Shown in pieces: positions 2,402 through 40,890 of a stretch of 64,000 bases of DNA (its first letter is position 1; each line of letters begins with the position of its first letter). Made by a program: the position numbers and the translations under genes. Source of the stretch: Isoetes taiwanensis (Eukaryota; Streptophyta; Lycopodiopsida; Isoetales; Isoetaceae); assembly GCA_021234155.1 (NCBI GenBank), contig JAJEKV010000027.1, positions 4,772,623 to 4,836,622 on the forward strand. Direction: 5' to 3'. The notes beneath the pieces are model-generated. The model saw only the letters and a program-made list of their open reading frames with translations. It did no database searches and was not told the DNA's origin.

Positions 2402-3480
2402 GTCTCTTAAAACAAAAATCTGAAATCTGAAAATCTGAAATCTCTAAATCTGAAATCTGAAATCTGGAAATCTGAAATCTGAAAATCGGTCTGGCTCAGC
2501 TATGGCACTGCATGGAAGCATATTTAATTGCTGGCACTTGTGATATATGAAGTTAGAACAGAAATATTGAAACAGGGTTTGCCTTGAATAGCAACTCACA
2601 CGCATGTATTCTATGTGTAACCAGTCCACCTCTTAAAACTAACATTTCTATTATGCTATGTGTTCGTTGTAGGTTCCTCAAGAATATTGCAAGAATGAAT
2701 ATGTGTCTTTGCTTTGTGGAAATGAAAAATTTGGTTTAGGGCTGATTCATGAAATAGATCCTGCTGCATTGGCACATGGAATACCAATTGGCGAAGGTAA
2801 TGTTTCTTTAAATATTTATTATCTTGAGAATGGTTCTGAGGAGCTGCCGATGCCATTTCCTATGAGCGAACTTGAGATTCTTAGAGATCTTGGCAATGAC
2901 ATGAAACAATGGTTTGTGCGATGGCCAAAATCAAGGCTTCGTCATGTACCTCAGATTGAAGCGCAAAAAATTTTGTCTGATCTTAACTCAATGAAAGAAA
3001 ACATTTCTGGTATGGAAGATTCAGAGCGGTGGTGATGATTTGCAGGTATGGGATCTTTGGAATTGGTCTTTTTTATGATAGCATCGGATTTCAGATTTCA
3101 GATTTTCATTTTAGGAGTGTGTTTTGCAAATATTTTCTTGAACAATTGCATGTATTGATGCAGGCTATAAACTCAAAGCAGATGAGCATATTGGAAAAGA
3201 TGTCGTCCCTCAAACACAAGACTATTTGCATGATTGCGCTTGACAAGGAGAAGATTGATGATGTTAATGCTGTTGATCTTCTTAAATTGAGCAAAGAACT
3301 GAAGAAAAGACACAAGGCATTTTCTGGTCTATTGAAATCCAAGGTGAGGGGTGCAGATTTGTATAAGCTCTTTGTAATGGCGTGCGTGAAGTGCAATATT
3401 ATGAAAATCTCCAGAGAGGGTTGGAGAACGGGCACTATCAATCATTCTACGGTCACATTGATAAGCTGATCACATTGTGA
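2248..3480 (+). CDS. Unrecognised gene with DUF8039-like domain, 3' end damaged
   Basis: Exon 1 (2248-2382) starts at an ATG and encodes an acidic stretch then KKRR; the donor is GTATGT. Exon 2 starts at 2673 after an AG and continues in frame. It encodes LLCGNEKFGLGLIHEIDP, then AHGIPIGEGNVSL, LPMPFPMSEL and QWFVRWPKSRL. This order (a short strand, HGVPLG-like loop, PVP, then WP) resembles the DUF8039 domain found in plant CACTA/EnSpm-linked proteins. Exon 2 reaches a TGA near 3033; a third segment from 3164 (acceptor CAG at 3161-3163) is a charged helical region that needs a frame change near 3363 to reach a Tyr-rich end at 3480. The gene is probably decayed or mis-split at its 3' end. It diverges from the 1172-2401 frame. 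Confidence 0.45.
2411..2490. repeat. AAATCTG minisatellite
   Basis: Repeated AAATCTG/AAATCTGG units lie inside the first intron of the 2248-3480 gene. A short inverted copy (GATTTCAGATTTCAGATTTT) lies at about 3086-3106. Confidence 0.65.
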
Positions 3481-4860
3481 TCTTGGATAAACTTAAAAGA
3501 CATATTCAACGTATTTGTGATGATATTACATTGAGAATTTTTTAAACTTGCAGTCTGTTTTCAATGTTGATCAATTATCAATGTAATATTCATTGTCCAA
3601 TTACATTCTGAAATCAATCTATCCTTGCTTGGCAAAGTAGCTGTGGATACCATAGTGAACCATTAAAAAAGCATATAAATGCTTTGAGCGAAAAGTAGTA
3701 GTGCTTAAGTACTATTTATAAACCATGTACGACAAAAAAACAGTTGTATGGTTCAAACGGAAAGTAGTAGCACATAAAGAACTATTTTGAAACCATTGAA
3801 GAGACCACTACATTTAACTAGTTGGTTTAGCAATGCTTGGACTGATAAACATTTATGGTTAATAGTCTTAAACCACCAGGCATGCATGCTAGAAAACTAT
3901 GTGTACTACAAATCATAACCATTAGGCATACACGTTAAGAACTATGCATGTACAATTAATAAGACTGCTACTGTTTCCGTTCATCAAACAAAAGTGATTT
4001 AGACCAGAGAGACCTAGTGATTTGTCGTCTTGACCATTGCGTATATGATAGAAGAAACAACTCAATCTTCAACGGAAAGAACACCATTCTTTCTGTGCAT
4101 TAACTTAAGAAGCTTGAGACTAGAGACCATTAGTGGTTTATCATCCTTAACAAGGATACCTTGAATGAAAAGGTTGCCATGCTTTCTATGCATTAATTGA
4201 CACTCTTTATGCTAGAAGCAGTTAGTGAATTACCAAACTCAATAAGTATTGCAATACATAAGAAACCATTCACAATCCTTAATAGTAACTTGAAACGCTT
4301 CATACTACATAACTCATTAATGGTTCATGAATAATAACCATGAACCTAATGCATAAAAAAATCATGTACATTTAGAACAAACAATTACATCTAAGATTGA
4401 AAAGCACATCAATGCTTTAAAACAATAACCTAAACACTTTGACCAACTAAATAATGGCAATTAACAACATATAACACATTGTCAACCATGTGCAGACCAT
4501 GCAAATTAGCATGCTAGTTTACCACAGTAACAAACCACTGTAAATACCACATTATAATATCACATGAATAGACCACTACATTAAGGCACATCCACAATCA
4601 TAATGTTTTACCATATGGACGAACCTTACCATTAAAACATTATAATATACCACATCCATTTAGCGACATATTATACCACTTTGAAATACACTACAAAAAA
4701 GCCATTTTTAATTACCATGCTATAATACCACTCTAACAAATCTTAAAAGAAAACCAAGTAGGTTAGCCCTGTATGGTTTTTAATGATATCAACCCACAAA
4801 GACGCATTGGTTTTGCAGAATAGTTTTCTAGTCATAACTATGGGAAAGACCATGTAGTGT
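3481..4860. other. AT-rich non-coding interval
   Basis: Stop codons are dense in all frames. CCATT and ACCATTA motifs recur, but no gene, clear TIR or RNA gene is visible. It separates the unrecognised gene pair from a gypsy fragment. Confidence 0.5.
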
Positions 4861-4867
4861 TTTATTT

Positions 4868-5548
4868 TTGGGTGCCTTGTGTATGATCAACTACGGCTAC
4901 CAATGCCTAACTCCAAACACTTGGCACAATCCCGTGTCAAAAGTAGAGGTTTCGCAGCAGATGTTGGCCGACATGCAGCAGCTGGTGGAAGAAGTTCGAG
5001 GATATCTTCTGGCAGCAAGGAGTCGACAAAAGAGCATCGCCGACAAGCATCGAACAGTCAGAGAGTTCCAAGTTGGCGAAGACGTATGGCTCAAGATCAA
5101 AGTCAAGCAGGCAAAGCTCCGCATCGGAAATTGTAAGAAGCTTGCTCCAAGGTGGGCTGGACCTTTCAGAATAGTCCAGAGAGTAGGTAATCAATCCTAC
5201 AAGTTAGACTTGCCAGCATACCTAAAGATTCATAAAGTCTTCCACGTGAGTTTATTGAAGAAGCATACTCCCAATCCAGACGAAGACTTGGACACTCCAA
5301 CGTTGTTGGAAATGACGGAGGAGCAGCTGGAAATAGTTCCAGAATTGATTCTTGATAAAGCCTTCAAGAAAACAAGGAGATCGGAGTTTCTCCAATATTT
5401 GGTCAAGTGGAAGCACTTGCCGGTGGAAGACGCGACATAGGTACTTAAGAAGGACCTATTAAAGCAGTACCCACAGTTTATGGAGCAATGGGACGGCAAG
5501 GTCATCTTCGAAGAAATCGGCTCAGGCATGACGATTTGTGTAGATTAA
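4868..5548 (+). pseudogene. Ty3/gypsy chromovirus integrase C-terminus plus chromodomain (truncated)
   Basis: The frame starts abruptly in the integrase C-terminal region (YGYQCLTP, then a helix ending DKHRTVREFQVGEDVWL). It continues through the GPF/Y-type module LAPRWAGPFRIVQRVG and the conserved HKVFHVSLLKKHTP. A chromodomain follows (ILDKAFKKTRRSEFLQYLVKW); such domains in chromoviruses direct integration into marked chromatin. A TAG at 5438-5440 sits where the chromodomain normally has Trp, and homologous frame continues for 35 codons to the TAA at 5546-5548. Everything 5' of the integrase tail is missing, so this is the truncated 3' end of an element whose 3' LTR is at 6440-8018. Confidence 0.85.
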
Positions 5549-6430
5549 TTCTATGTGTAGTTAAGATTAATCTGCGCATGCAACCTATGCTAGGTATGGG
5601 TTGCATGCGTTGTTACTGATGATGAGACCACTATGGTGATCTCTAGGGCGTGGTGTAATGTCAAGGTAGGCATGACCGCGTTCCTCTTGGACGAGTGGAA
5701 GGTAGATTAGGGAGTCTACTTCTGTCCCACGGAAGTAGACGACCTCGAGAGAAAGGAGGTCATTGAGGAATGCATTGATAGGAAAGGCACCTCTAGCCCC
5801 ATATATGCATTGATAGGAGGAATCTGTCCTTCACGCCCCATATACAGGAAGGACCCTATCCTCCACGCTGGGCAACTAAAGGTGTAGGCATGAGCGGCAT
5901 ATAGGCATTATAGGCCGCTGTCTCCACGGCCACGATGGAAGAAACATCCTCTTCCTACGCCGGGAGATTAGCCATGCATTCATGTAGATAGGTGGGGTGG
6001 TCACCATATAACCAAAATTTTACTAATAATTAAAATGGTACTAACGTAGTGTCGACCTGCAGGCCAATAGAGCGCTCCAGAGGGCAAGGAGGTCGAGCTA
6101 CGAAGACTTACAACACAAATTTTGTTAGAATGTGTTGCAAGGAATGAAGAGTACCTCGAACGTTAATTATATATATGAAATATTATAATTTTGATAAACT
6201 AGATTGTTGTGATAAGTGAATTATTGAGTAACTTGTTTTAATGACCTTACGAATTGATAAGTTATTTCATAAGATAATGGCGTAATAATGTTCTAAAAAT
6301 ATTACCTTAAGGTAATCTTAATAAATGTGTAAGTATTATAGTAGTATATTGTATGCATCAGGTTGATTGCAGGTTAGGAAGATTCCAAGGTGGGGAGACC
6401 CACGATGCTGCGGACATCATCATTTCAATG
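5549..6430 (+). other. Non-coding spacer between pol and 3' LTR of the gypsy fragment
   Basis: There is no open frame. The stretch contains partly repeated CCCCATATA(T/C) motifs near 5798-5850. Its position between the chromodomain end and a polypurine tract fits the untranslated 3' region of a chromovirus. Confidence 0.55.
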
Positions 6431-6439
6431 TGGGGAGAA
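6431..6439 (+). other. Polypurine tract of the gypsy fragment
   Basis: TGGGGAGAA lies immediately before the TGTGACG start of the LTR. This is the expected position for the plus-strand primer of a Ty3/gypsy element. Confidence 0.65.
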
Positions 6440-8018
6440 TGTGACGTTCCAACACAGTATACGGTCCCAGGACGTATACTGCACTGCATCGTCACGCGTA
6501 CACGCCACTCTGACTGACGTGTACGCCAACGTGTAGCCAGGCGGGTAGCCCCTAGGGGGCAACTTGCAAGGTATGTGCATTTATTAATGAGCACATTTAC
6601 CAATGTGCACATTTATTAAGGTGCACACCTTTCCATGTAGATACATTTATGCCACCTAGCCATTTAAGGCAAGTGGGCCATTCCCAATTATCCCACATGC
6701 CTAAAGGGATAATTGGAAACCCTAGCCCTAACCCCTTGTCTATTTAGGTAGGAGGAAACCTTAACTTGCCATTTTAGTCCATAGGGTTCTAGAGCTCTGT
6801 TTTGGCTGCCCCAGGAGTCAAAACCGCCTCCCAGACTCTGTCTAAGCGAATTGCACCATTAGTTTTCCTTGATTCGAGCAGTTCAGCAGGATGGTGGAAC
6901 TCAGGACAGGAGGACCGAGCCAGGGATCAGGTATTTGGTCGATTTAATAGCCTAAACCATCTTCCAGTCATTGCATCAGTAGGTTTAGCATATTAAATCG
7001 CCCATAGCAGCCATCTAGATTTCCAGATACCAGACTCTAACTAAAGAACCTAACTCTATGATATAGATGAGATGTAGTTCTTTAGTTCTTCTGTGATGTA
7101 TATGGATGTTGTATCTCTATGAACTCCTTGTATTGGGAAGGGGAGTAGAGGCCCCAAAGCTTGGTAGTAGATGCTCCTAGATTAGCCTCTCTAGCACACT
7201 ATAGATTCGGCCTGTGCATAGGAGCCACACCTGGTTGTGGGTGAAGGGGCCAGACTGGCTTATAAAGAGGTTCGTGTTCTGACTCTTGAATGATCCCTCT
7301 GGTGTGTAAAGTCTGCCGGGGATCACTGTGGACTAGGTCTGATGGCTTGCCACTGCGTGTGGGCAAGGCATGGGCTCGACACCCGTGGAGTGATGCGTCA
7401 CTCTCCAGTGGGTTCAAGTCAAATAAGGGCAGTGGCCCTCTAGTCACCTTGAGTCAGCATGTAGATCTCTGGAGGGAGAGATCCCTACCTGCCCCATCGG
7501 AACTGGGGAGATGCAACCCAGGAATAGCCCCTTTGGCTATGCATCCGGCGGGCTACAGTCAGGTCCCAACACTTTTCAGCCTACTCTGCAAAGTGTGCAC
7601 AGGAGGGGCGGATGGAGTGGACAACCCTGTGCCATGTTCTTATGCCAGCCAAATCCATTGCCATGAATTCTGTCTGCTATGAACTCTGGAGACCCAAGCC
7701 GTCAGTCATCCCTTTGAGTCGGAGCCTTGGGTAGGATTTCCACATGTATTGTGCTGATCTTTGTCTATGCAGATGTTGATGTACCACCCTTCGAGGTGGA
7801 TATGTGATGATATTGTATACTGACATGTATGTTTACGCTTCCGCAGCTAGGTAGGCCCTGAGGGAGACGGGGTAAAATGACCCCTTCACTCTTCCCACTG
7901 GAACTCATTACGGTTGCATTGATATGTGGAGGGCCATGTATCAGCATGGAGCTGGTATGGGGGATGAACTCTTGTTTGTATACGGTGAGTACACCGTATA
8001 TGAGTAGGGGACGTCACA
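6440..8018 (+). mobile_element. 3' LTR of a Ty3/gypsy chromovirus, about 1.58 kb
   Basis: The segment starts TGTGACGTTCC and ends GGACGTCACA, so the ends carry the inverted repeat TGTGACG/CGTCACA with TG...CA termini. It follows a purine-rich tract and lies downstream of a chromodomain pol end. No upstream partner LTR is in the window, so the boundaries rest on the terminal inverted repeat alone. Short open frames inside it have no recognisable product. Confidence 0.7.
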
Positions 8019-19147: not shown

Positions 19148-21987
19148 ATGGATACTTCAGGATTTATCACCTCTTTGATGACTTCTGCTATTATATTGGT
19201 TCTATTTTTTCTTGTATATTGGTGGGTTTCCAGGCGTCCAAGTAATTTTGTGATCTACTATCCGGCACTTATTTTAAATGGGGTGGGGGTACCAGAGGAC
19301 GCGCAATATAGAAGTCCCTGGCAATGGATCGTAGACGCATGGCAGGTTTCTGAAGAGGAGATTGTGTCTTTTGCTGGTCTAGATGCTGCAGTTTATTTGA
19401 ATCTGCTTGACACAGGTAAACTCTCTTTTTATTTGACAAGAAACTAATGCTCTGTTCATTAGAACGAATTGGAGATATTTTCTGTTTTTAGACTGCTCTT
19501 CTGTTCATTAGAACATATATTTCTGTTTTTTAAAATCATCTTCTTCTTCGTAGATGTTGTTGCATGGAGTAATTGATATTTAGAGTGGTAGATATTTGTA
19601 GCTCTAGCTTTTCAGCAGGATGTCTAGGAATAGGACCATCTTTGTGCTTTCCAATGTTGAGGGAACATTTAGATGTTTTCGCGTAGGTTAGGACATGATA
19701 AGCATAGCCTAGGGTATGCTTGTCTGCTTTCTAGCTCTTCTTAAAAAAGAACATGAAGGATGTCGATATGTTGTCAAAATTATACCAATTTGCAGCTTTG
19801 AAGATTTTGGGCTGCACTGCAATATTTGGCATTCTGGTGCTTCTACCACTGGCAGCAACTGGCAACCAATTGAAACAAAGATCTAAAGGAACCACAAGCT
19901 CTGCAAATAATTCAACAAGACGCACCAATGTCAATTCTACCTTTAGTGGCTTTGATGCACTGGACATGGCCAATTTGAAGGTTGATGTTGTGATATTATG
20001 GATTAATTTTCAATTTATTGAATTAAGACATTGATCCTTATCATATTTTCTTGCCATCTTGGTGCAGCAAAAAGATCCAAAAATGTGGGCATTTATTGTT
20101 GGTGTTTACTGGTTGTCCATTGCATGTTATATGGTGCTCTGGAGGAAATATAAACATATCATCCTACTCAGGAACAAGGATCGTTCTTCTCTGGAATCTA
20201 AGCCAGAACATTACACTGTGCTAGTGAGAGACATACCACCTGTTAAGGACGGTACATTCATGGAACAAGTTGATGCCTATTTCCAAAAGATTCATCCACG
20301 AACTTATGAAAAATCGATAGTCGTGACAAATTTCAAAAAGGTAGCTTTGGAGATTGTAACTTGTTGCAGACCTTCCTTTTATCTTTTAATAGGGTGACCG
20401 TATTTTAGGCTTTTAAATGTTGGGCAAAATTGGAGAAGTATAAAAAGAAGTTAGCCCATGCAGAAGCAATCTTTGCAGAATCTAAAACTAAGCGAAATCC
20501 AGAAGGTATTCGTCCTTGTCATAAGACAGGGACTTTAGGACTTTCAGGTCAAAGGGTGGATTCCATGGATTTCTATCAAGATAAGGTTAAGAAGTGGAAA
20601 TTGAAGTATGAGGATGAAAAGAGGAGGACCTTATCTAGAGAGCAACAATCTTCAGCATTAGCTATCTTCAATAACAGGATGAAAGCAGCTGCTGCAGGAC
20701 AGTCTGTGCATTCACGATTTACTCAGCAATGGTCCACAAGTATAGCTCCTGAACCTCGAGACATCATTTGGGAAAATCTGGCTATCCCATTTTACCAGCG
20801 CTTGATAAGACAAGCAGTGGTCCACACACTTGTTTTTCTGACAATTTGTTTTTCCATGATTCCCATCAGTTTTGTGTCTGCATTGACAACTCTAAGTAAT
20901 CTTCGAAAGACCCTTCCCTTTCTGAATCCTATTGTGAATATAAGTGTTCTACATTCTGTACTGGAAGCATACCTCCCTCAGCTGGCCCTTATCACCTTCT
21001 TAAATTTTCTGCCAACTTTTCTTCATTTCCTATCAAAGTTAGAGGGAATTTCCTCCCAAAGTGACCTGGTATGGGCTACTTCCGGGAAGTTCTTCTCTTT
21101 CATGATCTTTGTTGTATTTCTGGGTGTTGCACTCACAAGTTCATTGTTTAACACTCTAAAGCAAATTGAAAAAGAACCGAGCGGCACCGTGAGCCTTATT
21201 GGTAAATCTCTTACAAGTGCATCTTCATTCTTTGTAACGTTTATTGCTCTCAAGTAAGTGCTTTTGTCTGGCAAATACTGCAAAAAAATTGTTTGTCTTA
21301 ACCTAAAATATAAGGATGGAACAGGTTTTCAGCTGGCTATGGATCAGAAGTGTTACGGCTTGTGCCCCTTTTAATGTATTATCTTAAGCGTAGGTATATT
21401 TGCAAAACTGAAGACGAAATTCGAGAGGCCTGGGAACCTGGCTCCTTTCAATATTCCACAAGCGTCCCGAATGATCTTCTAATACTAACAATTGCTATTT
21501 GTTATGCTGTGATTGCACCCATGGTGCTTCCATTTGGATTGCTCTACTTTGGTCTGGGCTGGATTGTTCTTCGAAACCAGGTGTGTTTCTGTTCCCTCCA
21601 AATCTTTCACATTTTTTTGTATGCTGATTTTTCCAATTTTATCAGGCCCTAAAGGTCTATGTACCAAAATTTGAAAGTGGTGGCAGGATGTGGCCACATA
21701 TACATAACCGAATTATGGCAGCACTCTTGGTTTCCCAAATTGTAATAATTAGTTTCTTCACAGTAAAAGAATTCATGTATACCATTTTCTTGGTGCCACT
21801 TCCTTTTGCAACGGTTACATTTGGATATGTCTGTCACAAAACCTTTTATTATGCATTTGAAGTGACTCCACTTTCTATTGCAAGTGTTGAAACGACGGAA
21901 ATGCCTGTAATCTCTATGATTGTAGAGGCTTATACCCCTACATGCTTATCTGCAGAGGATGATGAATTCAAAGATGCTGAAGTTTGA
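19148..21987 (+). CDS. CSC1-like / OSCA3-type osmosensitive calcium-permeable channel (ERD4 homologue)
   Basis: Six exons with GT-AG introns join in frame: 19148-19415, 19796-19980, 20068-20340, 20409-21253, 21325-21580 and 21646-21987, giving 722 codons and a TGA stop, almost the length of Arabidopsis ERD4 (724). The family consists of plasma-membrane, mechanically gated cation channels of the TMEM63/OSCA/CSC1 group. The N-terminal transmembrane segment (IILVLFFLVYWW) precedes a second one in exon 2. The cytosolic RNA-recognition-like domain carries YTVLVRDIPP, and a charged helical region follows (KLEKYKKKLAHAEA). The C-terminal half holds the RSU1/DUF221 helices, including VSALTTLSNLRKTLPFL, YFGLGWIVLRNQ and GRMWPHIHNRI. 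Motifs and exon phases match the ERD4 subclade rather than OSCA1. I chose the ATG at 19148 because it aligns with the ERD4 start. The gene appears intact, the only multi-exon gene in the first 60 kb that does. Confidence 0.93.
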
Positions 21988-29477: not shown

Positions 29478-30560
29478 TTAATCAGTTTTGAATTCAAAGG
29501 TCCAAGATATACTCGTCATCACCCTTCTTGCTTGTCTCAGGCTCTTCTTTTGATGTCGATTTGTTTGCTTGTCCGGTGAATCAACCCGTTCTTCTGCAGC
29601 TTTGTCTTCTGGATTAACAACTGGAGCAACTTCTTTTAGCTCTACAAAAACAACCTCTTCGTCAACAGAGCTCGTGAGAGGTGGCTGAATCTCTGATGAT
29701 GTCATCTTGGCATAATCAGATGAGGATTTGGCGCCTAGCTCTTGATTCTCATCAGGAAGGTTTGGTAAGACAACCAATCTCATCTTAATGAAGCTCACAG
29801 CCTCCTTGTCTATGTCCACGGCCACACAATTTCGGCCCTTCTTGAGTGCACATGCAATGGTGGTACCAGAGCCAGAGAACGCATCAAGCACCCAATCTCC
29901 TGGACGAGAAAACATGTCAATGAGATGGTTGATGAGTTTTTGGGGCTTCTGATAGTGGTTCACAATTCGCCTTTGTGCACTCGGGTCTTGCGACTTACAG
30001 AACAATGCGAGAAACTCTAAAACATTTGAGAAGTCGGTCGCGGTGTATGTTGAAATGCTCCATGGTCCTCTTGCCATCGAAGCTCCAGTAACCAACGTGC
30101 AGATATTCCACTTTGCTTAACAGCCTGGGGCCTCCACCATGATAATTTATATTCGTTTTGTACCTTCAAGAGAAAGGTCAATGGTCAGCAACAAAAGAAA
30201 ATAACAAGTAGTGTATTCCAGAATACGAAGCGTACCAGACTAAGTTCTCGTAACCAGCTTGGTCAGGAGATCCAAAGTGATTTTTAAAGCTGACTTCGAC
30301 AAGACCAGCTTGCATACTGGAGTGAAATACCACTAGCCGCCAGTGTCTAGCTGTAGTGATCTTCATTAAGCCTTTTATGAATTCATTGAAATCCGCATGC
30401 TTAAAAGGGATGTCATCGTATCGACTGTCTTTAATCTTGAAGCCGTAGGGAATGTCAGCAATGATTAGCATGAAATCTTGTGGCTTCATACTCGCTACAA
30501 GCTTGGTGCAGTCCCCATGTGCAATTGAGTAGAGATTGTTTTGGTCGAATAAAGTAAACG
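29478..30560 (-). pseudogene. Beta-class amino DNA methyltransferase domain (N6-adenine or N4-cytosine)
   Basis: The domain has the permuted beta-class order. First comes SIAHGDCTKLVA and the catalytic motif IV in IIADIPYGF (a D-x-P-Y variant of DPPY), at about 30430-30530. Then comes a substrate region ending ENLVW; a GTACGC donor near 30234 joins the AG near 30166 to give WYKTNINYHGG and HVGYWSFDGKR. Last is the S-adenosylmethionine motif RPGDWVLDAFSGSGTT (about 29860-29907) followed by CVAVDIDKEAV. A Lys/Arg-rich tail ends at 29478. Established: PF01555-type enzymes methylate exocyclic amino groups in DNA and are mainly bacterial or phage. The frame changes near 30065 and cannot be spliced cleanly in at 30555-30600, so this copy seems broken. 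Whether it makes 6mA or 4mC cannot be told from sequence. Confidence 0.82.
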
Positions 30561-30634
30561 TTTCATAGTCCGTTTACTATGACCTCTACAACCGACGCTC
30601 TCCCAAAAGTTCTTTATTCCCGAGCAATCCTTAC

Positions 30635-31420
30635 CAGGTGCATGAAACCTTCTGGTAGGTCCTTGTTTTTCTTCTTACTCTGCAAATCCACAAAATAATT
30701 AGAACATTTACAAATCTACGCTACCTAAACGCCCAAAGCAGGCTTACCCAGCCTTCAAACTTTGGAGCGTACTGAACAATTCTCTCGTCAGATGTAGCAA
30801 TAGGATAAAGCTCCTTGCACCGTTCCCATGTTTGCACATTCAATTGTTCCATCAAACATGTTTGACATGTAATGACGTTCTTCTGGCTGCAACATCCAAA
30901 CCAAGAATTACATCAGGGACACGTCTACAGAAGAACTTTAACGCAATCACAAAACAACACCACATCAAACAAGAAAATCCAAAGTGTATTCCGGAATACA
31001 CTTTGGCTAACGTGTAAAGCCAAAGTGTATTCCGGAATACACTTTGGCTAACGTGTAAAGCCAAAGTGTATTCCGGAATACACTTTGGCTTTGCTTCAGT
31101 TACTCAGCGTTGCAGACGGATTCGTAAGGCTAAAGTTTCCGGACTGTACAGAGCGTTGACACAAAAGACTAAACTTTCTAAAAGACTTACTTGTGCAACT
31201 CCTTCGACATTTCTTCTAAAGTAAATTCCTTGTCCACAACCTTTTGCAGTAACATTTCTAATAACGGAATGTCTGTAAATCCTTGAAGCTCTCTCCAGAC
31301 AGTGATAGTCATTTCTTTTTTTGGAACATCGGATCCTTTTTTCTTGTCTGTCACTTTGCCCTTACTTTTGAGGTCTTCGCGCTCGAACATATTAAAAATT
31401 TCGTTTTGTAAATCCCATAT
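30635..31420 (-). pseudogene. Linker exons between ParB-like and methyltransferase domains
   Basis: Three exons join in phase by GT-AG splicing: 31420-31191 (starts IWDLQNEIFNMFEREDLK, ends in a Glu/Lys-rich helix), 30886-30748 (QKNVITCQTCLMEQLNVQTW to FEGW) and 30679-30635 (SKKKNKDLPEGFMHL). The CxxC in the second may bind metal. The intron between the first two contains three tandem copies of the palindromic repeat. These introns make bacterial contamination unlikely. Confidence 0.65.
30979..31089. repeat. Three tandem palindromes in an intron (41-bp spacing)
   Basis: Copies at 30979-31006, 31019-31048 and 31060-31089 are perfect inverted repeats with core TGTATTCCGGAATACA and AAAG/CTTT extensions. 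They are separated by CTAACGTGTAAA, so they form a 41-bp tandem array. They lie in an intron of the ParB-methyltransferase gene. Confidence 0.92.
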
Positions 31421-31506
31421 CTAAACATGGTAACAAGTGGCGTTAGTACAATGTATTCTGGAATAGAATGCTGGGACTAGCTACTTGAACTAAAATGCGG
31501 ACATAC

Positions 31507-32346
31507 CCTTCCTTCTCTAAAAGCAAGCTGGAACCAGTTGTCATGGGCAATAAGAGAGGTCCTTTTGTTGTCCTCGTCGTACTTTAGACAACACTCTATG
31601 GCACACGCCTCTTTGAGCTCCAAGGACTATGCTGGCTTCTTTAGGTCTTCGCCATATTTTTCTTTAAATATAAGAAATTCTCTGTGCATAAACCTGATTT
31701 TATCCACGAAGCTCATCTTCAATTTGTACTCGTTGTCCGCATTGTGGGTGTTGGCAACGATCTTAGCTTCTTCGTCGGTAAGGCCACAATATACTGCACA
31801 AAGAACCGTCAGATACCTCGCGTTGAACTTCTCCTTGTACAGTTGCCTCCTTGCTTTAAAGCTGTGGTTCCCCCCTAACACATAATGCGTGTAGGTATTT
31901 TCCTTGTCATACTGGGCGGGGTCAATGCACTGTTGCCTGTCAACTAGCACAACTATAGGAGCTACATGAGCATACGGATTGCTCCTGATCCTGTCCTTCA
32001 AGTTCCTTAAATGATCTGCATAGATCTTCCGAACTTGAAGAGGTCTCTCACCGTTTTCGTTCTTTGGTGGCATTTCCCTATTTATTGCTACCATTTTTTC
32101 TGAAGTCTTGTCGACCTTCTTTTCTTTAATAGCCACACCAGGGGCTTTGTTTTTTCCTCTTGCCTTTTTTTGTTTTGGTTCTTCTTCTGGCTCTTCCGAT
32201 ACCACTAATGCCTGAGTTCTCTTCTTAGCTGGCTCTTTAGCAGCAACAGTGTTTCGTGGCACTGGCCTTCGTGGCTCTTGCTCCACAAAATCCTCTTTGC
32301 TCCCTTCATTACCAGATGGGCTGCTAACTGATTGTAAAGTCTTCAC
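31507..32346 (-). pseudogene. ParB/sulfiredoxin-like domain of the ParB-methyltransferase gene
   Basis: The exon opens with ~100 charged residues (several Lys/Arg-rich runs, possible nuclear-localisation signals). A ParB-N fold follows: RPLQVRKIYADHLRNLKDRI and HVAPIVVLVD, then the signature-like loop VLGGNHSFKARRQL, then LTDEEAKIVANTHN (about residues 100-235). ParB domains bind DNA at parS palindromes or act as CTPase or nuclease modules, and in phages and mobile elements they are often fused to DNA methyltransferases. A TAG at 31627-31629 interrupts the frame, which continues open to a GTATGT donor near 31508. The stop may be inactivating. Confidence 0.8.
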
Positions 32347-32409
32347 TAAACGAAGAACTTACAGTGTGTACAATGGACAACAGTGTTTGTTTGTTTATAT
32401 AGTGTGCCA

Positions 32410-32790
32410 CATACTTGTAAAGTGGATTTGGGTTTACCCTAGTCAACCTCAACATAGCCTCATCAAGAACAAACATCCCCTGTGATGTACTAAATGACAG
32501 CCTACCGCGCTGTCCAGACTGCCCAGCAACACTGTCAACACTCTTTATATAGCCCATGCACTGGAATTCGACGTCGTCGTAACGTTTCTGTCCTGGACTC
32601 TTACAGGCGTGCAGGAATGTGAGTGTGGAGCACTTGCCTCCATGGCCTCTAGTAAAGAACCACTGAGTTTGGAAACATTCGTAGACAGTTGATTCAGATG
32701 GGCCACCCAGACTCTTCGGCGGCTGGTGCTTCTTTGTGACAAGCTTCACGATCTTCTTAGCAGGTTGCTTCTGGGCAGGGTTTTGGCTGT
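32410..32790 (-). pseudogene. N-terminal exon of the ParB-methyltransferase gene, unknown domain
   Basis: An AG acceptor near 32790 opens a frame rich in Lys (KKIVKLVTKKHQPPK) followed by a compact segment: ECFQTQWFFTRGHGGKCSTL, then FQCMGYIKSV and GRLSFSTSQGMFVLDEAMLR. It ends at a GTATGT donor near 32410. I do not recognise the domain. Joining to the ParB exon is not clean in phase, so the splice is uncertain or mutated. Confidence 0.45.
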
Positions 32791-32928
32791 AGTAATGGTG
32801 TCATTAGCAAACAGAAACTAGAGCAGGATAATCAGCTAAAGTAACAAAAACGGAGAAAAAACAAGCATTTCGACACTTAAAACAAGGAAAAACATTGCAA
32901 TCCTTGACCTCTAAAGCCCTAAAAGTAA

Positions 32929-33289
32929 GCAAAAGTGTATTCCCGAATACACTTTTGCCGCACAAAGTAAAGCAAAATGTATTCCCGAATACACTTTTCC
33001 TTAGACTGTTTAGCCAAAATGTATTCTGGAATACACTTTGGCTTTCACTGTTAAGCCAAAGTGTATTCATACACTTTGGTTTTTACTGTTAAGCCAAAGT
33101 GTATTCCGGAATACACTTTGGTTTGACGGGATTGCCAAAGTGTATTCCCGAATACACTTCGGCTTTTGTTGGTAGGCAAAAGTGTATTCCGGAACACACT
33201 TTGGCTTACCAATGAAAGCCGAAGTGTATTCGGGAAACACTTTTGCCTACCAACGAAAGCCGAAGTGTATTCGGGAATACACTTTGGCT
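32929..33289. repeat. Array of nine palindromes in the divergent promoter region
   Basis: Copies lie at about 32929, 32972, 33013, 33055, 33093, 33133, 33175, 33218 and 33259, spaced about 40 bp. All have the form AAAGTGTATTC-SS-GAATACACTTT, with the centre varying between CCGG, CCCG, CGGG and CTGG. The copy at 33055 lacks part of its centre and that at 33218 has a single-base change in one arm. The array fills the gap between the two divergent genes. Confidence 0.92.
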
Positions 33290-33547
33290 AGACAGAAGGA
33301 CAGTACGTCTAACTTGAATGATTAAAAGCACGTACAAATGACAAGTCGCACTAACCTGTCCATGGTAAGCCTATGCAAATCGGAATACAGCTCGAGCGGA
33401 AATTTGCGGAGGCGCTGGGTCTGGCGACTGGAGCTGCGGAAGTCGAATAGAAAAATGAGGGCGCATTTTTTTCCTTTTAAAGATACGCTGACACGTTTGT
33501 CCAAGTTCTATGTGAAATCGAATACAATACATTGTGTGGGCCAATCA

Positions 33548-33637
33548 CTGTGTATTCCGGAATACACTTGCAGTTTCTTTTTGTCTTCTCTTTTCCTTCC
33601 CTTCGCTGCACAACTCGATTTGTATTCCCGAATACAA
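33548..33637. repeat. Two further palindromes in the 5' leader of the + strand gene
   Basis: Shorter versions of the same palindrome occur at 33548-33570 (TGTGTATTCCGGAATACACT) and 33620-33637 (TTGTATTCCCGAATACAA). Weaker copies lie at 30210-30229 and about 31450-31465. Confidence 0.85.
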
Positions 33638-33695
33638 AATGCACACCACTTCTGTGTTTTACTTACGTCTAACAAATGTTTTGCAGCTTCGTAAG

Positions 33696-35192
33696 ATGGT
33701 TAACCGCGTGCTGAACAAGCTACCACCACCTTTTGTAGTATCTAGTTCGTCCAGTTCGGAGGGAGCCCTGGTCCAGGACGTTGTTTGTCATGATACCACC
33801 TCTTCTCCATCTCGTTCCTCAGCAACCTCCTCGTTGCTCGTCTTCGACACTCCGAGTCCAGAAACAAACAGGTTGCCACAACCCTTCCAGCCGTCGCCAA
33901 GTCCTGTACAAAACAGACTGCCCCCTCCATTCATTCCATCACCACCTGTACGTAACATGCTTCCACTACCCTTTGTTCCTTCCCCCGAAAGTGCACAGGC
34001 TCCACATGCAAAGGTTACTCGGAACAGGCTCCCTCCACCCTTTGTAGTATCTCCATCACCAAATAGAAGTGCAAGGTCTGCTGCACGGTTTGAAGAATAC
34101 GAGATTCACCACAACTTCTCTCAATATGACTTCAACACAAATGAGGATGATGTTGCAGCTTCAACACCTCGACACACAAATATTGTGACACATGGGTTTG
34201 CAGAGTTTCAAAGTGCAGTAAGAGATATGTTTGCAAGAACTCCTCAACAAGATGCTGCCACAACATCTGCTACCACAACAGGTTATGGCCCATCTCCTAC
34301 ATTTAACACCGTGCCTCTGCCTTTTCCGGGAACAGCTTCACGAGGCCTCTTTTCCTCTAGAAACACACCAATGAGGGTAGAGGAGGCCACTCCAAGAGTA
34401 GAACTCTCGTCCAAAGATGAAGGCAACAACGGCCAACAAGATTACATGTTCTCCAGCCAAACTACCCAGAAATTCAGGGTGGATTATGGATTGAGAGCAT
34501 GTTCATCTGTGAGAAGGAAAAACCTTATGGACGAGAACAAATTGAGGAGAATTCTAAGAACTACTAGATGCTGCTCATTGGGTTGCATCACCAAATTGAA
34601 CATGGCTAAACTTCGTGAAATTAGAAACAGGTACAGTTCGATGACATTATCAGATCAAAATGCCTACTTGGCATACAGTGTAAGGCCAGACCGCAAAACA
34701 TTCTTGCACTACATTAGAGGTGAACAAGTGTGCCAGAAATGTTTTATGGTTGTTCACCGTCTAGGGTCCACTAGAATCTCTCGAATACACCGAAGATTGG
34801 ATAAAGTCCCTGCAATTGATGATCACTGCGGGCTAGGAAGAGTTGTAACAATGCACGCCTTAGGTGCTGTAGCTTGGATGGAGAAATATTTTAGAGAGAC
34901 ATGTGAAAAGCTGCCAAACAGTAAAATGTATCATTTGACAGACAACATCACAAAAAAAGATGTCTTCAACCAGTACAAAGAAACATGCACTCAGTCTCAA
35001 CACATCTCTTACTCTCACTTCACTAGTCTGTGGAAAGTTCAGTTTGGTCTTGTGAAAATTCCCCGAAAATATAGATCGGGTCATGTACCTCGGGCCAAGA
35101 CGCAAAAATGAGCATGCAGGTAATATCACAGAAATTACCAAAGGTATGTTGATTGCTACTCCAACTGAGGACGATGATAAAGGGCGACCTTT
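33696..35192 (+). CDS. Pro-rich, Cys-containing transposon-type protein (N-terminal part)
   Basis: I start at the ATG at 33696 because upstream sequence is palindrome array and leader. Residues 1-130 contain five degenerate repeats of N-x-L-P-x-P-F-V-x-S-P. The conserved part begins near residue 270 (FRVDYGLRACSSVRRKNL). It continues with TRCCSLGCI, LREIRNRYSSMTLSDQNAYL, GEQVCQKCFMVVH, and FRETCEKLPNSKMYHL, and ends in SHFTSLWKVQFGLVKIP. From memory, this CC..C / VC..CF / W..F...IP arrangement is the N-terminal module of uncharacterised transposase-like proteins in several eukaryotic lineages, usually before a DDE-type region. The main frame stops at 35109. A +1 shift at an A5 run continues to GMLIATPTEDDDKGRPFWIA (near 35180), so a one-base indel is likely. 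Any catalytic part is missing. Confidence 0.6.
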
Positions 35193-35331
35193 CTGGATAG
35201 CAAGCCACCCATTTCTCCCTATCTTTCCCTAAACCTCTCTCCTTTGATACCCAGCTTAACCTGATCAGTTTTCCTGACCGTAAGACGCCAAATGCACAGC
35301 TAGGAAGTTTAGTCCCAGATGCACACCCACC

Positions 35332-35484
35332 ATGGTAGCAGCAGTAGCAGGCCCTGGCAAGAAGATCCTGGAGCTCCTTAAGCCCGGGAGGGAGGAGGAG
35401 TCGTCGAGTTCGACCGACGACACCTACCACGCCTCCCAGGAGGAGAATCAGAGTAGCTCCTCGGTGGAGACAACGGATGGATGA
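35332..35484 (+). CDS. Acidic/Ser-rich leader frame upstream of the H3-like protein
   Basis: The ATG at 35332 opens a 50-codon frame (GPGKKILELLKPGREEESSS...). It stops at 35482, but a frame rich in Gln and Glu runs on to about 35590. The composition matches the acidic N-terminal extension that follows at 35644, so this may be the original N-terminus, split by small indels. Confidence 0.35.
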   Translation: MVAAVAGPGKKILELLKPGREEESSSSTDDTYHASQEENQSSSSVETTDG

Positions 35485-35643
35485 GACCGTCACCTTTGGC
35501 CATCCGTCCGACCAGGAGGAGCAGGAGCACCAGGAGGAGCACCAGGAGGAGCAGGAGCAGCAGGAGGAGGACGAGCAGGAGAAGCAGTAGTAGCAGGAGG
35601 TTGGCCCTTCCAAGAAGAGGAAGGGCAAGGAGAAGGTAGCGGA

Positions 35644-36417
35644 ATGGCCGAGGGAGAGGGCCCAGAGGAAGACGAGGGAGAGGAAGAAGGAAGCGCGGAG
35701 AAGGGAGAAGCGGTCCAAGAGGGACCAGGACTGCCCAAGAGGGACGGTCAGGAACCTCGTCGGGAATCTACCGACGAGGGGGAGGAGGAAGAGGAGAGTG
35801 AGGGAGCCGGCCAGACGGAGGATGAGCCCGAGGGAGACGCCGGGGAACCCTCGAATCCTGACGCCCGCCCACCATACTCTAAGTGCCCTAAGCCACCTAA
35901 GGTCATAAAGAAGCAGAAGGTGGGCGAGCGGGAGTTCACGTTGAAGCAAGACCGTGAATTCCAGCGTTGGAAGAAAGTATACCAGGAGTACCTCTGGAGG
36001 TGGAAGAGGTACAATGACTGGTATTGTAAGCAAAACGTACAGAGGTACGTTAAAGGCGGGCGGCCGAAGAACCAGCCCAAGCCACCGCCACTATGGCCGG
36101 AGCCGTCGAAGAAGGTCCACCACGGGCCCAATTCAAGGCATGCCCGTGTCTTCAAGGAGATTAGGCACTTCCAACAGTGCACTAATCTCCTTATCAGGAA
36201 GGTGCCCTTCGAACGGCTCCTCCCGGAGATAATGCAGGACTTCCGGACCAATTATAGAGTGACACCCTTGACGGTTCGAGCCCTGCAGGAGGCAGCAGAG
36301 GCGAAGCTCATCCAGCTTTTTGAAGAAGGTAATCTCTGTGCAATCCACGCCAAGCGGGTGACGATAATGCCCAAGGATCTGCACTTGGCGAGGAGGATCC
36401 GCAAGGTGAAACCTTGA
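35644..36417 (+). CDS. Histone H3-fold protein with long acidic/aromatic N-terminal extension
   Basis: An open frame of 257 codons. Residues 156-257 align with histone H3 from the KKPH region before the alpha-N helix to the C-terminus: [20 protein letters not shown] (alpha-N/alpha-1), QDFRTNYRV (loop 1), [18 protein letters not shown] (alpha-2) and [15 protein letters not shown] followed by ARRIR (loop 2 and alpha-3). The last block is identical to canonical H3. The H3-H3 contact residues equivalent to C110, H113, R116 and D123 are kept, as is R83; K56 is Gln, K79 is Arg and R72 is Pro. Loop 1 has canonical length, unlike CenH3. The ARTKQTARKS tail is missing, so the K4, K9 and K27 sites are absent. 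Instead there is a Glu/Gly/Ser-rich acidic region (1-75) and a Trp/Tyr/Lys-rich region (about 85-140). The frame is GC-rich compared with its neighbours. It lies just downstream of the transposon-type gene. Confidence 0.88.
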
Positions 36418-36599
36418 GGAGCTCCATTTTTGTACATAAACTAAAATTATATATATATATAAACTTTTGTCTGTATAATTCTATTCCATATCTATATAAA
36501 AGTTTTTTTTTCCTGTAAATTAATTTCTTGTTTGATATAAAAGTGTTTTTGTATTGCAGTAGAATCTTTTGTATCATACTTAGAATACTCCTAATTGCT

Positions 36600-37135
36600 T
36601 AAATTGCATAAAATTTTGACCCAAAAATCAAAATTTGGCTCGAAGTCAACCCACTATGGCCGATTCATGCCAAAGCCCTCTGCGTCGCGAATGCAGATCC
36701 CTTTCACGCGAATGGACCCAAGTCACTTGATTTGGGGCAAAATTGATCCAATTTTTGTACTAAGAGATGTTACAATGCCTAAAATTCGTCTAGAAATGCA
36801 GTGTAGCACTTAATTTTAGTTAAAAATATCAAAATCAAGTCAAAATTGGCTCACTCGGGTCGATTCGAACCAAAGCCCTCTGCATCGCGAACGGAGACCC
36901 CTTTCGCGCAAATGGACCCGAGTCACCCAAATTTCCACTTTTAGATATCCAATTAGCATGAAATAAGTTGCTAATTAGTTTAGAATTGACCCAAATAGGC
37001 ATGTTAGCATTTTATAACCCTTAGAAATGTTTAATTGTGAGCAAAATCAGGCCACTCGGGTCGATTCGCGCCAAAGCCCTCTGCGTCGCGAACGTAGACC
37101 CCTTTCGCGCGAATGGACTCGAGTCGACCAACTTT
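36600..37135 (+). repeat. Three ~200-bp tandem repeats
   Basis: A block containing CCAAAGCCCTCTGCGTCGCG and then CCCTTTCGCGCGAATGGAC occurs three times, starting at 36670, 36870 and 37071. Spacing is 200-201 bp; intervening DNA is more diverged. The array lies upstream of a TATA box, as enhancer-like repeats do in some LTR U3 regions. Confidence 0.85.
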
Positions 37136-37300
37136 GACCACGACTTGCCCAAATTTGTCCCATCAAACTGCCATATAGTGTTTCTTGATTTGTTTTGCTT
37201 AGATTTGCACTTCATGGTACCTCATTTGGAGATCCATAGCCTTAGAACAAAGGTCTGTTCGATCAAGAACCCTTGTGCATGGAAGCCGAGGCAGCCTTAG

Positions 37301-37310
37301 TCTATATAAG
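37301..37310 (+). promoter_or_regulatory. TATA box
   Basis: TCTATATAAG is followed ~110 bases later by an ATG (37421) that opens a retroelement-like frame. It lies downstream of the 200-bp repeat array. The combination fits a retrotransposon or plant gene promoter. Confidence 0.5.
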
Positions 37311-37420
37311 GGGGCCTCATTTGCCATTTCCTCTTCGCCAAACTTGCTCTCACCCTCTTACGCGATTTTCCAGGCGTTTATCAGTTCTTCCAAGCCATTT
37401 TCTACATCTATCTCTGCTCA

Positions 37421-38970
37421 ATGGCACCTACCAACTTCGTTCAATGGTACGACAGTGCCAACCACATCCGTGATTTCCCTGCTGAAGAGGCCTTCCATGT
37501 GTTTGATCATCTCTTCGACCTGCATGCAACCCTGACTAGAACCCCTTACTACACTGATATAGTTTGCCAGCATGACAAGCAAATCTTACCCTGGGAAGTT
37601 AGCCTTCCCCTAGGGGAGGGAAGTGGATATCCTTAGAGTCGCTGAGCCAAGCCATAGGGAAGGATCTAGAGTCAAGAGGCAGCTGTGGGACAGGACGAGG
37701 GACATGTCTGACTATATGACTTGTAAGGCTCACAGGCATAGGTATATTTCGGCACAGGCGGCTCTCTCTTTATACATGTAGTATAGGGCAGTCAACAAGG
37801 TGGGGGAGCCTTCGATCCAGCCTTTGGACCTAGCGCCACTCAACACAAGCATGGAGCAAAGCCAGATACAAGAGATTGAATCCTCGGAGTACGTGTACCA
37901 TGGCACAACATCAGGGACACTGCAGATTGAGCAGAGCTATGAGAAACTTGGGGAAGAAAACCCAGATTAGGAGAGCAGGGAGGCAGCAAGAATGGAGAGA
38001 TGCATAGCAAGGCATGATGATAACATTAGACGGGCCACAGAACCACCAATCGACATCACAACTCTATCGCCAATAGTAATCGAAGGTGAGGAGTACATTT
38101 TGGCAAACGATATCCTCAACCTCCCATACTGCGAAGAAGAGGGGCTCAGGATCGACGAGCTCTTAGGCTTGATTGCAAAGGAGCAGCAGAGCGACTTCAT
38201 TGACTACTCCTATCAGGAAGTCCCAAGAGAAGTAGCAGAGCGGCACTCCTACGCCGGCGAGACAATGTCTGACGTCGCCGCCTATGAATATATAAGAGAA
38301 ACGTACCAGCGGCAACAGCCAGTCATCCCAAAAGAGGAGTTCCAAGTCATTCAAAGCAGGTTATACAAACCAGGGAAGGCCGGAGCTCCAGCCGAACCGT
38401 TCGATCGTGAAGTATGCGCGAGGGGTCCAGCAGCATCAATTTGGAGAGCGCAACCACCATGTGGAGGGACCATGAAGAGTCTACGGTGGAGTAGCTCAAA
38501 TGAAGGGCACAGGATCGCAAGAAGCGGGGCATAGGGGAAGAGCGCTCCGATACTATCTTCCAGTCCTCAGTCAAGGATAAATGATAGTCTTCCACAAGGA
38601 GTTTAGCCCACGAGGAGAGGAGGCCGTGGCGCTCTTAATATCACTCTCAGGTTTTGGGCAGCATGCCAAGTTGCACAGCAACACGGATCACATCATCCTC
38701 TTCAAGAGATCCGTGGTACTCTACAACCTCGACTTCGCCAGGGGCCACTTGAGAGACGCACCAATGACGGTCGTCACGGCAACAACGCCTCCACTTCCTC
38801 CACCTCAAATGGCTCGAGCTCTCGAGGGTGGGTCAGCGAGAAACATCCTGTGCAACGTCGGCAAAGGCCTTCGACTTAAAGATGTCAAGAACTTCTTCAA
38901 ATCAATGCCAGGAACACCGGTTCAGGATATCAAGGCCAGGGCCGACAGCAACTGTGGCAGCCAAGGAACT
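37421..38970 (+). pseudogene. N-terminal gag-like region of a Ty3/gypsy element (broken)
   Basis: From the ATG at 37421 a 71-codon frame (MAPTNFVQWYDSANHIRDFP) breaks near 37636. From about 37800 another frame resumes, crosses a TAG near 37968 and runs to 38534 (DITTLSPIVIEGEEYILAND and so on). A further piece covers 38581-39003. These pieces lead directly into recognisable gag. I do not recognise the N-terminal part as a known domain. Confidence 0.45.
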
Positions 38971-39960
38971 TGTTCGGCCGCGAGCAAGACGACGACCAAG
39001 ATATGACAGTTGAAACAGTAAATGCAAGCTTGGCTCAGATGAGGAATCAGATGCAGCAGTTACTACAGTGGGCAACACCACTAATGCATGCCCAAGAGTA
39101 TGGACCTCCACCACTGCCTCCACCTCCAAGGGGTCTTGACGGAACTCCTCAACCAGAGGGGAAAGAAGCCCAGGCTCCCGAGAAGCATAGGAAGAGAAAA
39201 AGAAGGCATAGGATGAGCCCATCTCCTTCCAGCTCTAGCAGATCAGAGACTTCAGACAGTGGATCCGGAAGTAGCTCCGAGAGTGAGTTAGACACGTCGC
39301 ATGGCAGAGATAAGGACAGAAAAACAGATGACTACCAAAAGAAAGTAGACAACGCAATGAGTAATGTGTGGAAGATAAGAAAGCTAGGCCAATTCTCGGG
39401 CAAGGACAGATCAGGTATGGAGGCAGAAGCATGGCTGGATGAGATGGAAGAATTCGGAAACTCTTATGGAATGAAAGATAAAGATATAGGCAAGGTGGCA
39501 ACAACAAACTTGATAGGGCCAGCCAGAATATGGTGGAAGGGTTATGCAAAATCAAACAAGTTGAGAAGAAACAACTGCAGGTTTAGGACATTCAGCGAGG
39601 CATTCCTAAGCATTATGTCCCGAGATCCCATACCAGCAGACAAATACAACAATTCTATAGGTTGGATCAGGGTAATTTATCCGTGGCTAAGTATAGGGAG
39701 GAGTTCATGAGGTTGAGATTGAATGTTCCAAGGATAACGGAAAGACAAGCCGTAGATGGGTATATCGAGGGCCTCAATAGCAACATCAAAAGGCTAGTGA
39801 GGGCAATAAATCCGAGAACAGTTGGGGAAGCAGAAGATAAAGCTCTCAGCTTAGAAGAGGCACCAGTGACCCCGGCACAGAAACAACTTCCATATAAAGG
39901 AAAGGCAGCAGGGCAATATCAGGCTAGACAGGCACCCTCTATTCCAGCAGGAGGCTAGTA
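38970..39960 (+). pseudogene. Ty3/gypsy gag core (retrotransposon gag domain), frameshifted
   Basis: A Pro-rich and Ser/Arg-rich leader precedes the capsid-like core. The core reads KLGQFSGKDRSGMEAEAWLD, then MEEFGNSYGMKDKDIGKVAT and ARIWWKGYAK. A frame change near 39655 joins to LDQGNLSVAKYREEFMRLRL and GYIEGLNSNIKRLVRAINP. This is the typical retrotrans_gag order; gag forms the virus-like particle. Confidence 0.8.
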
Positions 39961-40890
39961 CCAGGGGAAAGCTCGGGGGAAGCCTTATGGGGAACGCAAG
40001 CCACAGGAAAGATCAGGGGGCAAGTCAGTTAGATTTCTCCTAAACAGCATCCCAAAGGAGAAAAGACAGGAATGCATTGAGAAGAAATTGTGCTTCAGGT
40101 GCTTCCAGACCGAATGCACAATTGCCCTTTTGTTATACAGGCGGCATTAGCTGAACTTGTCGATTGGGAGTCACCAGCCGAGGGGGATGACGAGGAAGGA
40201 GACCAACAGGAACCCCAAGACTTCATAGAAGGTGAGTGTAAAATTTGTGCAGCCATTGAGTCAGGGGAGGTTAAGAATCAGTCTACAATCATCTCGGCAG
40301 AAGGAATCATAGATAGCAAGCCATACATAGTCTTGATAGACACAGGTAGTTCCCACAAATTTGCCTCTCCAAGGCTAGCTGCTTTCATGAGGAATAAGAT
40401 CTTGAAGTCCAAGCCCAGGCAAGCGGCGCTATCTGCCACATTAAGGGGAGGAGAATTAGTTTTGACATAGACCTTAGTGGAAGCAAGTGGCCGATGGGTG
40501 CGAAAGTGATGGACATTGGGAAATATGACCTCATAGTAGGAATGGAGTTCCTCAGACCAGCAACGAGATCTCTATGACCGCAACGAGATCTCTATGACGG
40601 TGCCAGACGGCAATCGATACATAAGGTAAGAAGGTAACTTCAGCTATGCAATGTATCTCTATGAAGTAGTTGAGGAAAAGCATAATAAAGAATAGGGTGG
40701 ATTATATCTTGAGGCTAGAGGCAGTTGAGTCAAGTCAAGCAAAAGGAAGTGAGCCAAGTGAAAAGTAGTTGCCTAAGCCAATAGCAAGGCTTATAAAGGA
40801 GTTTCATGATGTATTCATGGATGAAATCCGTCACCTACTACCTTACAGGGGTATAGAGTGCGAAATCATGCTAGGGGGTTAGGATCTTGA
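39961..40890 (+). pseudogene. Gag zinc-knuckle, aspartic protease and start of RT of the same element (truncated)
   Basis: After a TAG near 39957, a basic stretch leads to a damaged zinc knuckle (KKLCFRCFQTEC). The protease then has its active site in YIVLIDTGSSHKFASPRLA (near 40324-40380) and the later block YDLIVGMEFLRP near 40519-40560. A short tandem duplication (CAACGAGATCTCTATGAC) at about 40561-40597 disrupts it. The RT start follows, EFHDVFMDEIRHLLPYRGIE near 40800-40860, and homology ends near 40885. Confidence 0.75.

Follow-up and report, generated by a model that had tools for sequence, protein, structure and literature searches.

The genome of Isoetes taiwanensis harbors a lineage of chromodomain-bearing Ty3/gypsy LTR retrotransposons that carries a histone H3 gene between the primer-binding site and gag. 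Purifying selection across the element lineages has kept the start of the H3 tail, a module of a long insert, and the histone fold. In the window, by which we mean the whole stretch of 64,000 nucleotides analyzed, an open reading frame (ORF) of 257 amino acids at 35644..36417 (+) is, by sequence comparison, a damaged copy of this extra gene. Transposon silencing works largely via histone H3 marks. Can mobile elements resist this silencing, or divert it, by providing the nucleosome themselves? A lineage that has long kept an H3 of its own allows this question to be tested directly.

A lineage of Ty3/gypsy retrotransposons carries a histone H3 gene

The window ORF had been described in an earlier note as an H3 variant whose tail was replaced by an extension of ~155 residues. 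The ORF list and a tblastn frame comparison confirmed that the open frame is real, and a Pfam search, which that note had proposed as a check, matched its residues 141-253 (36064..36402, +) to PF00125 with an E value of 8.5e-29. H3 chains of the PDB matched at 2e-30, and the 15-residue stretch reported as identical to H3 was recovered in them. Using tblastn with three intact relatives, we found that the ATG at 35644 is not the start of the family and that the frame first read differs from the family frame over ~35485-35750; because the frame there is not that of the family, the ATG and the first ~37 residues of the window ORF are artefacts of decay. Thus, the extension exists in the family as an insert, but its first ~37 residues as originally described do not belong to it. 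Upstream of the ORF, the same relatives and a three-frame translation revealed what is left of the H3 N-terminal tail (from K4 through K9 and on) at 35290..35484 (+), which begins with KCTARKFSPRCTPTM at 35290 and ends in a stop at 35482-35484. The tail is therefore gone only from the broken window ORF. An H3 variant that has lost its tail is ruled out, since the relatives keep an ARTKxTxRK start. A Pro/aromatic module of the insert, common to both element families described here, lies at 35866..36144 (+; alignments and comparison with copy L012, ends set by eye).

A translated search of the genome (1,658,258,908 bases in 1110 contigs) with the 257-aa protein matched at least 148 places, a lower bound given that 148 were scored among 13,243 candidates. 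All had E < 1e-96 and all reached into the extension. Inspected by eye, 72 of the 148 stretches contained internal stops and 76, including that of the window, did not. The copy number and flanks of the paralogues, which the earlier note had named as worth determining, place them in an LTR retrotransposon. The window copy taken alone, with its artefactual start, could be read as an ordinary H3 pseudogene joined to other sequence by a chance frame, misassembly, or read-through. The insert and the fold occur together at all of these places, inside LTR elements, and we give such an origin next to no probability; neither it nor the absence of an H3 match, both of which the earlier note had allowed for, holds. 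A lone host H3 variant or fusion pseudogene is ruled out by the same copies.

Ten copies, picked for open frames, were fetched with stretches on each side. In seven of them, homology to the other copies sets in abruptly ~2.4-2.9 kb ahead of the H3 match, and in L011, L023, and L027 it begins nearer to the match; in most it continues, though interrupted, for several kb past the ORF, and the outer flanks bear no relation to one another. The element order is LTR, tRNA-iMet-type primer site, H3 ORF, second ORF, gag, pol with chromodomain, and LTR. One copy of 13.2 kb (L025/L026) displays this whole plan, with 96.9% identity between its 5' LTR (L025 6543-8180) and 3' LTR (L026 8339-9978), the primer-binding site TGGTATCAGAGC, a G-rich purine tract before the 3' LTR, and a 5-bp target duplication (AAACA) flanking both sides; not all of its coding frames are intact. 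In L013/L014 the LTRs are 83.9% identical and the target duplication is ATGGA; the stretches of the other eight fetched copies yielded no LTR pair. Pfam matches in L026 follow the Ty3/gypsy order of gag, protease, RT, RNase H, integrase, and chromodomain, with Retrotrans_gag and RVP_2 in the ORF at 3015-4439 and, at the integrase C terminus, PF00385 (6.6e-11) behind PF24626. This chromodomain seems to lack the aromatic cage, whose residues, read by eye with HP1 numbering, appear to be L, W, and L. Among 39 loci with a match, picked mostly for open frames, a primer site was present upstream in 31 when one mismatch was allowed (in L023 only at a distance of 8.5 kb), and in the copies seen the H3 ORF was the first ORF after it.

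Blastn extents against other copies delimit a decayed H3-bearing element at 35204..40874 (+) of the window, with its 5' LTR and primer site missing and pol truncated; neither an LTR nor a primer site was found for this copy. Sequence comparison and RNA folding revealed three direct repeats of ~200 nt between H3 and the next ORF (36580..37135, +), one copy of which folds as a hairpin (z score of -3.47, with 1 of 200 shuffles equally stable). Remnants of the second ORF, between H3 and gag, lie at 37421..38534 (+; ORFs and conservation), and the interval 37001-38500 is conserved in 7 of the 10 downstream stretches of the fetched copies. Gag/protease remnants follow at 38880..40874 (+; blastn to L026 2632-4644). 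The 3' end of a related element copy was identified at 4838..7844 (+), comprising an integrase C terminus (PF24626), a chromodomain-like stretch (weak PF00385), and LTR pieces (matches at 7127-7226 and 7462-7844). The transposon setting reported for the window ORF is thus correct, but the ORF is itself part of a transposon. The suggestion that its open frame reflects retained function applies to the family, but not to the window copy, which is decayed and has lost its frame and start.

The Isoetes element shares with chromoviruses the LTRs, the primer site, the gag-protease-RT-RNase H-integrase order, and the chromodomain, and differs from them by adding the H3 ORF and the second ORF before gag. 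The chromodomain aromatic cage that marks the Tcn1 clade seems to be missing. Tcn1 elements mostly have no tRNA primer site (PMC6317226), whereas the Isoetes element has one of tRNA type. Orchid Gypsy elements with a 2-ODD domain likewise combine an extra conserved domain with copy-number expansion, in an account that surveyed 121 angiosperm genomes, with lycophytes outside its scope, and listed 15 extra domains in LTR elements; the nine named in its section 12 include no histone (PMC9289625). The word "histone" is absent from the available part of a review of additional ORFs in plants (PMC7264820) and from the main text, as available, of the Isoetes taiwanensis genome paper (PMC8566536), and appears once, for chromodomain binding, in the available part of a large survey of plant LTR elements (PMC6317226). 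The word "retrotransposon" is absent from the corresponding part of a viral histone review (PMC9145170). No retroelement-encoded histone was found in the literature within reach, which included few subscription papers and no bioRxiv preprints. To judge from these sources and the gene content described above, chromovirus-type elements with an H3 gene appear to be new, a kind of gene in no report found.

In a protein collection, the window ORF gave 5856 matches at E <= 0.001, and the 120 listed were largely H3-like; four of these that we examined were tandem H3 models. The window's own protein was absent among the 120 listed, and the collection seems not to contain the source genome. Residues 62-180, most of the extension, yielded 36 candidates in this collection, none at E <= 0.001, and an alignment of 13 inserts yielded none at E <= 1 among 7993 candidates scored. 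For the insert in viral contigs, 57 pattern matches were obtained and none was confirmed; NCBIfam gave no match for two proteins. The earlier statement that no plant H3 of this build has been described agrees with the searches made.

Tail, insert, and fold of the element H3 protein

In ten copies a single frame of 373-417 aa runs from the H3 start to the C terminus. These proteins begin with MARTKQTARK, MARTKQTYRK, or MARTKCTARK, with the exceptions of L011 (MTKTKCSARK) and L013 (MARTKCTMKN). The H3-like start persists in full-length copies, so the extension interrupts the H3 tail as an insertion and does not replace it, contrary to what had been proposed. A tail start, defined by at most 4 substitutions from MARTKQTARK, was found in 33 of the 39 loci (missing from L001, L008, L025, L037, L038, and L045), and it shares an open frame with the matched ORF in only 11 of the 39. 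Among the 33, A1, T3, K4, and R8 are each kept in 32, R2 in 31, and T6 and K9 in 30. At position 5, Q is retained in 15 tails and replaced by C in 16; at position 7, 18 tails have A, 10 have Y, and 5 have M. Tail subtypes were apparent, with Tyr at A7 accompanying Q5 (L017, L021, L023, L044) and Cys at Q5 accompanying A7 or M7 (L002-L006, L032).

From residue 10 to the alpha-N helix we counted 275-319 residues, compared to ~38 in H3. The insert of ~240-280 residues consists of Ser/Gln/Glu-rich sequence, a KKKGKEKV-like basic stretch, an acidic tract, and the Pro/aromatic module, which is predicted to be helical and has invariant aromatic residues. After this module comes a KK-containing stretch like K36-K37 and then the H3 fold. 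No counterpart of the K14-K27 tail segment or of S10 was seen in the element H3 proteins.

The fold was compared in 31 cores of the main family. Among the residues of the four-helix bundle, C110 is conserved in 29 of these, H113 in 30, R116 in 27, and D123 in 31, in agreement with what had been noted for the window ORF; R63, R69, R72, and R83 are conserved in 29, 29, 25, and 29. Departures at the conserved Arg positions often lead to Trp, Gln, or His, as expected from methylated-CpG decay in silenced copies. Position K56 carries Q in 26 cores and M in 5, and position K79 carries R in 23; another sequence takes the place of the alpha-2 chaperone motif. PF00125 also detects the H3 fold in L027 and in L012, which represents a second element family. 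Over 87 residues, five relatives align to H3.1 with no gap, so that loop 1 has canonical length as stated earlier; identities are 55-59 of 87 for L027, L047, and L025, 49 for L045, and 47 for L012. Two AlphaFold models of the element H3 protein were of low confidence (mean pLDDT of 53.5 and 55.0).

Could the element H3 derive from, or act as, a centromeric H3 that steers the element to centromeres? Resemblance to plant CenH3 is seen in the motif EIRHFQ..TNLLI and, for L012, in LLIP.APF and RVTLMRQD. Against this, loop 1 is canonical and has no insertion, and all 31 main-family cores score higher with H3.1 (median, 269; range, 240-292) than with rice CenH3 (median, 199; range, 163-218), in a comparison that used two non-host CenH3 sequences. 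For L012 the scores are 236 with H3.1 and 225 with CenH3. These results fit the earlier view that the protein is not an ordinary CenH3; a centromeric identity or origin is disfavored, and we consider it quite improbable.

Rates of substitution were then estimated from copies at the top of the match list. Pairs of H3 cores from 32 main-family copies (443 of 496 pairs usable; 53 with undefined dS) had a median dS of 1.30, a dN of 0.075, and an omega of 0.058, values that are rough because Nei-Gojobori counts saturate at these dS. The insert module gave an omega of 0.083 in 26 copies (272 of 325 pairs; those with undefined dS or dS <= 0.1 were left out), and the tail start a pN/pS of 0.23 at a pS of 0.73 in 33 loci. 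The median omega of the core fell from 0.127 (18 pairs with dS up to 0.3) to 0.044 (dS > 1.5), as would be predicted were drift also at work in recent copies. For RT of five elements, omega was 0.017-0.21 in the 5 of 10 pairs with defined dS; in the three pairs with both values defined, RT gave 0.212, 0.073, and 0.068 and the H3 core 0.084, 0.068, and 0.049. The copies were mostly picked for open frames, which may hide broken codons, yet this bias would not yield a low omega at such dS.

These data bear on whether a host H3 gene or fragment was captured by one retrotransposon and is a mere hitchhiker, useless to the element. Plant LTR elements are known to capture host genes, as stated in the available part of a review (PMC7264820), and the internal stops in 72 of 148 stretches (by eye) fit hitchhiking. 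However, the core omega is as low as that of RT from the same elements, the tail start is retained though synonymous sites are near saturation, and the H3 gene is carried by two element families. A useless passenger is accordingly highly improbable, and the H3 of this retrotransposon lineage is very probably a functional, element-specified histone, as judged from its pattern of substitution.

Possible roles of the element H3

The tetramer positions and most DNA-contact positions are kept, which argues for pairing with H4 and wrapping of DNA, and we consider the element H3 protein likely to be nucleosomal. Our preferred reading, held tentatively and with nearly as much chance of being right as wrong, is that the lineage encodes its own nucleosomal H3, with the tail start split from the fold by the insert, and that this H3 is deposited with host H4 and sets the chromatin of the element's own copies. 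The element H3 would pair with host H4 and enter nucleosomes, which would carry K4 and K9 and escape part of the host silencing code. With no counterpart of the K14-K27 segment, S10, K56, and K79, part of the host marks would be impossible on such nucleosomes, and the change in the alpha-2 chaperone motif suggests that loading by another route may apply. The benefit to the element that we favor, though with somewhat less than even odds, is that the protein keeps element chromatin expressible or marks it, as a means of anti-silencing or self-marking.

Alternatively, the element H3 could act outside host nucleosomes, or as a tether that binds chromatin or H4 and guides integration, or it could aid packing or import of the DNA copy. 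The position of H3 as the first ORF behind the primer site in the copies seen, the conservation, within the insert, of an aromatic module and of basic and acidic stretches, and the altered chaperone site would all suit such a role. Most main-family copies, however, retain the nucleosomal contact residues. Furthermore, the integrase chromodomain seems to be without an aromatic cage (by eye, with HP1 numbering), which leaves a simple K9-methyl link unsupported; for this reason we do not propose that the integrase reads the element H3 via K9 methylation. We regard a role of this kind as rather unlikely.

Another candidate role is that of a decoy, in which the fold is only a carrier for an ARTKxTxRK end that would titrate H3K4 and H3K9 readers and writers or recruit them. 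K4 is kept in 32 and K9 in 30 of the 33 tails, and viral proteins that mimic histone tails have been described. Yet the fold is constrained at least as strongly as the rest, and substitutions among the 33 tails, of A7 by Y or M in 15 and of Q5 by C in 16, might hinder some readers. A decoy is improbable.

Parasite-encoded histones provide the closest parallels. As described in the available part of a review (PMC9145170), DNA viruses (xenomavirus, phycodnavirus DSLPV1, Sylvanvirus) likewise encode a lone H3, in some cases with a tail longer by 35, 53, or 68 residues, and bracovirus histone H4, captured from a host, has an altered tail and is incorporated into host nucleosomes. The Isoetes H3 differs from the former in that its carrier is a retroelement, its addition lies inside the tail behind an ARTK start that is intact and is far longer, and it is old enough for near-saturated dS; the bracovirus protein is H4 and not H3, a virulence gene of a wasp virus, with no retroelement involved. 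A retrotransposon lineage with its own H3 would extend histone capture from DNA viruses to retroelements. If the preferred reading is true, a retroelement would write part of the host histone code, and H3 would have evolved independently inside mobile DNA. The many diverged copies also form a natural series showing which positions of the H3 tail and fold matter.

A second element family and other features of the window

Behind copy L011 lies a member of a second family, L012 (reversed coordinates), with an LTR at 618-2300, a primer site, an H3-like ORF of 417 aa counted from MARTKQTARKPRRR, a 532-aa ORF, gag, and pol; its gag-protease-RT part was identified in Ty3/gypsy order (Pfam). The second ORF between H3 and gag (L012 3519-5114, -, 532 aa; window 37421-38534, +) has no Pfam match. 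The H3 protein of L012 is 37% identical to that of the main family over 253 aa, insert included, and has lost R63 and K64 (P and W). Between the families, RT is 82-83% identical and H3 cores 52-59%; 83% is also the identity of the two RT sequences farthest apart inside the main family. Since RT is about as distant within the main family as between families and H3 cores are far less alike between them, the histories of H3 and RT differ. One family may have changed faster, or the H3 part may have been exchanged. In a tree with bootstrap values not settled and with H3 and CenH3 reference rows, the 31 main-family rows grouped at 99/97, and their link to L012 was weak (87/37).

Palindromic repeats lie on both sides of the L012 H3 ORF, at (reversed) 2519-2787 and 4373-4639. 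The hairpin or palindromic repeats by the H3 ORF, in the window as in L012, may represent an RNA or chromatin boundary element.

Scans of the 64-kb window with Rfam (gathering threshold) and for tRNAs found nothing. Immediately upstream of the truncated H3 element, and ending ~90 bases before it begins, is a 525-aa open frame at 33534-35111 (+) with repeated NRLPPPF-like motifs and a Cys/His-rich end; it has no Pfam match and was not found in other element copies. Broken ORFs of a bacterial-type DNA methylase (PF01555, 2.3e-17) occupy 29478-32800 (-), together with an ORF upstream of them that matches DUF6551 weakly, below the cut-off. Palindromic tandem repeats of 41-42 bp (30975-31090 and 32927-33289) bracket this region, which is unusual for a plant and is perhaps another mobile element. 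Finally, a frame at 20409-21257 (+) matches a calcium-dependent channel family (PF02714, 6.7e-30; PF14703) and is likely a piece of a host gene.
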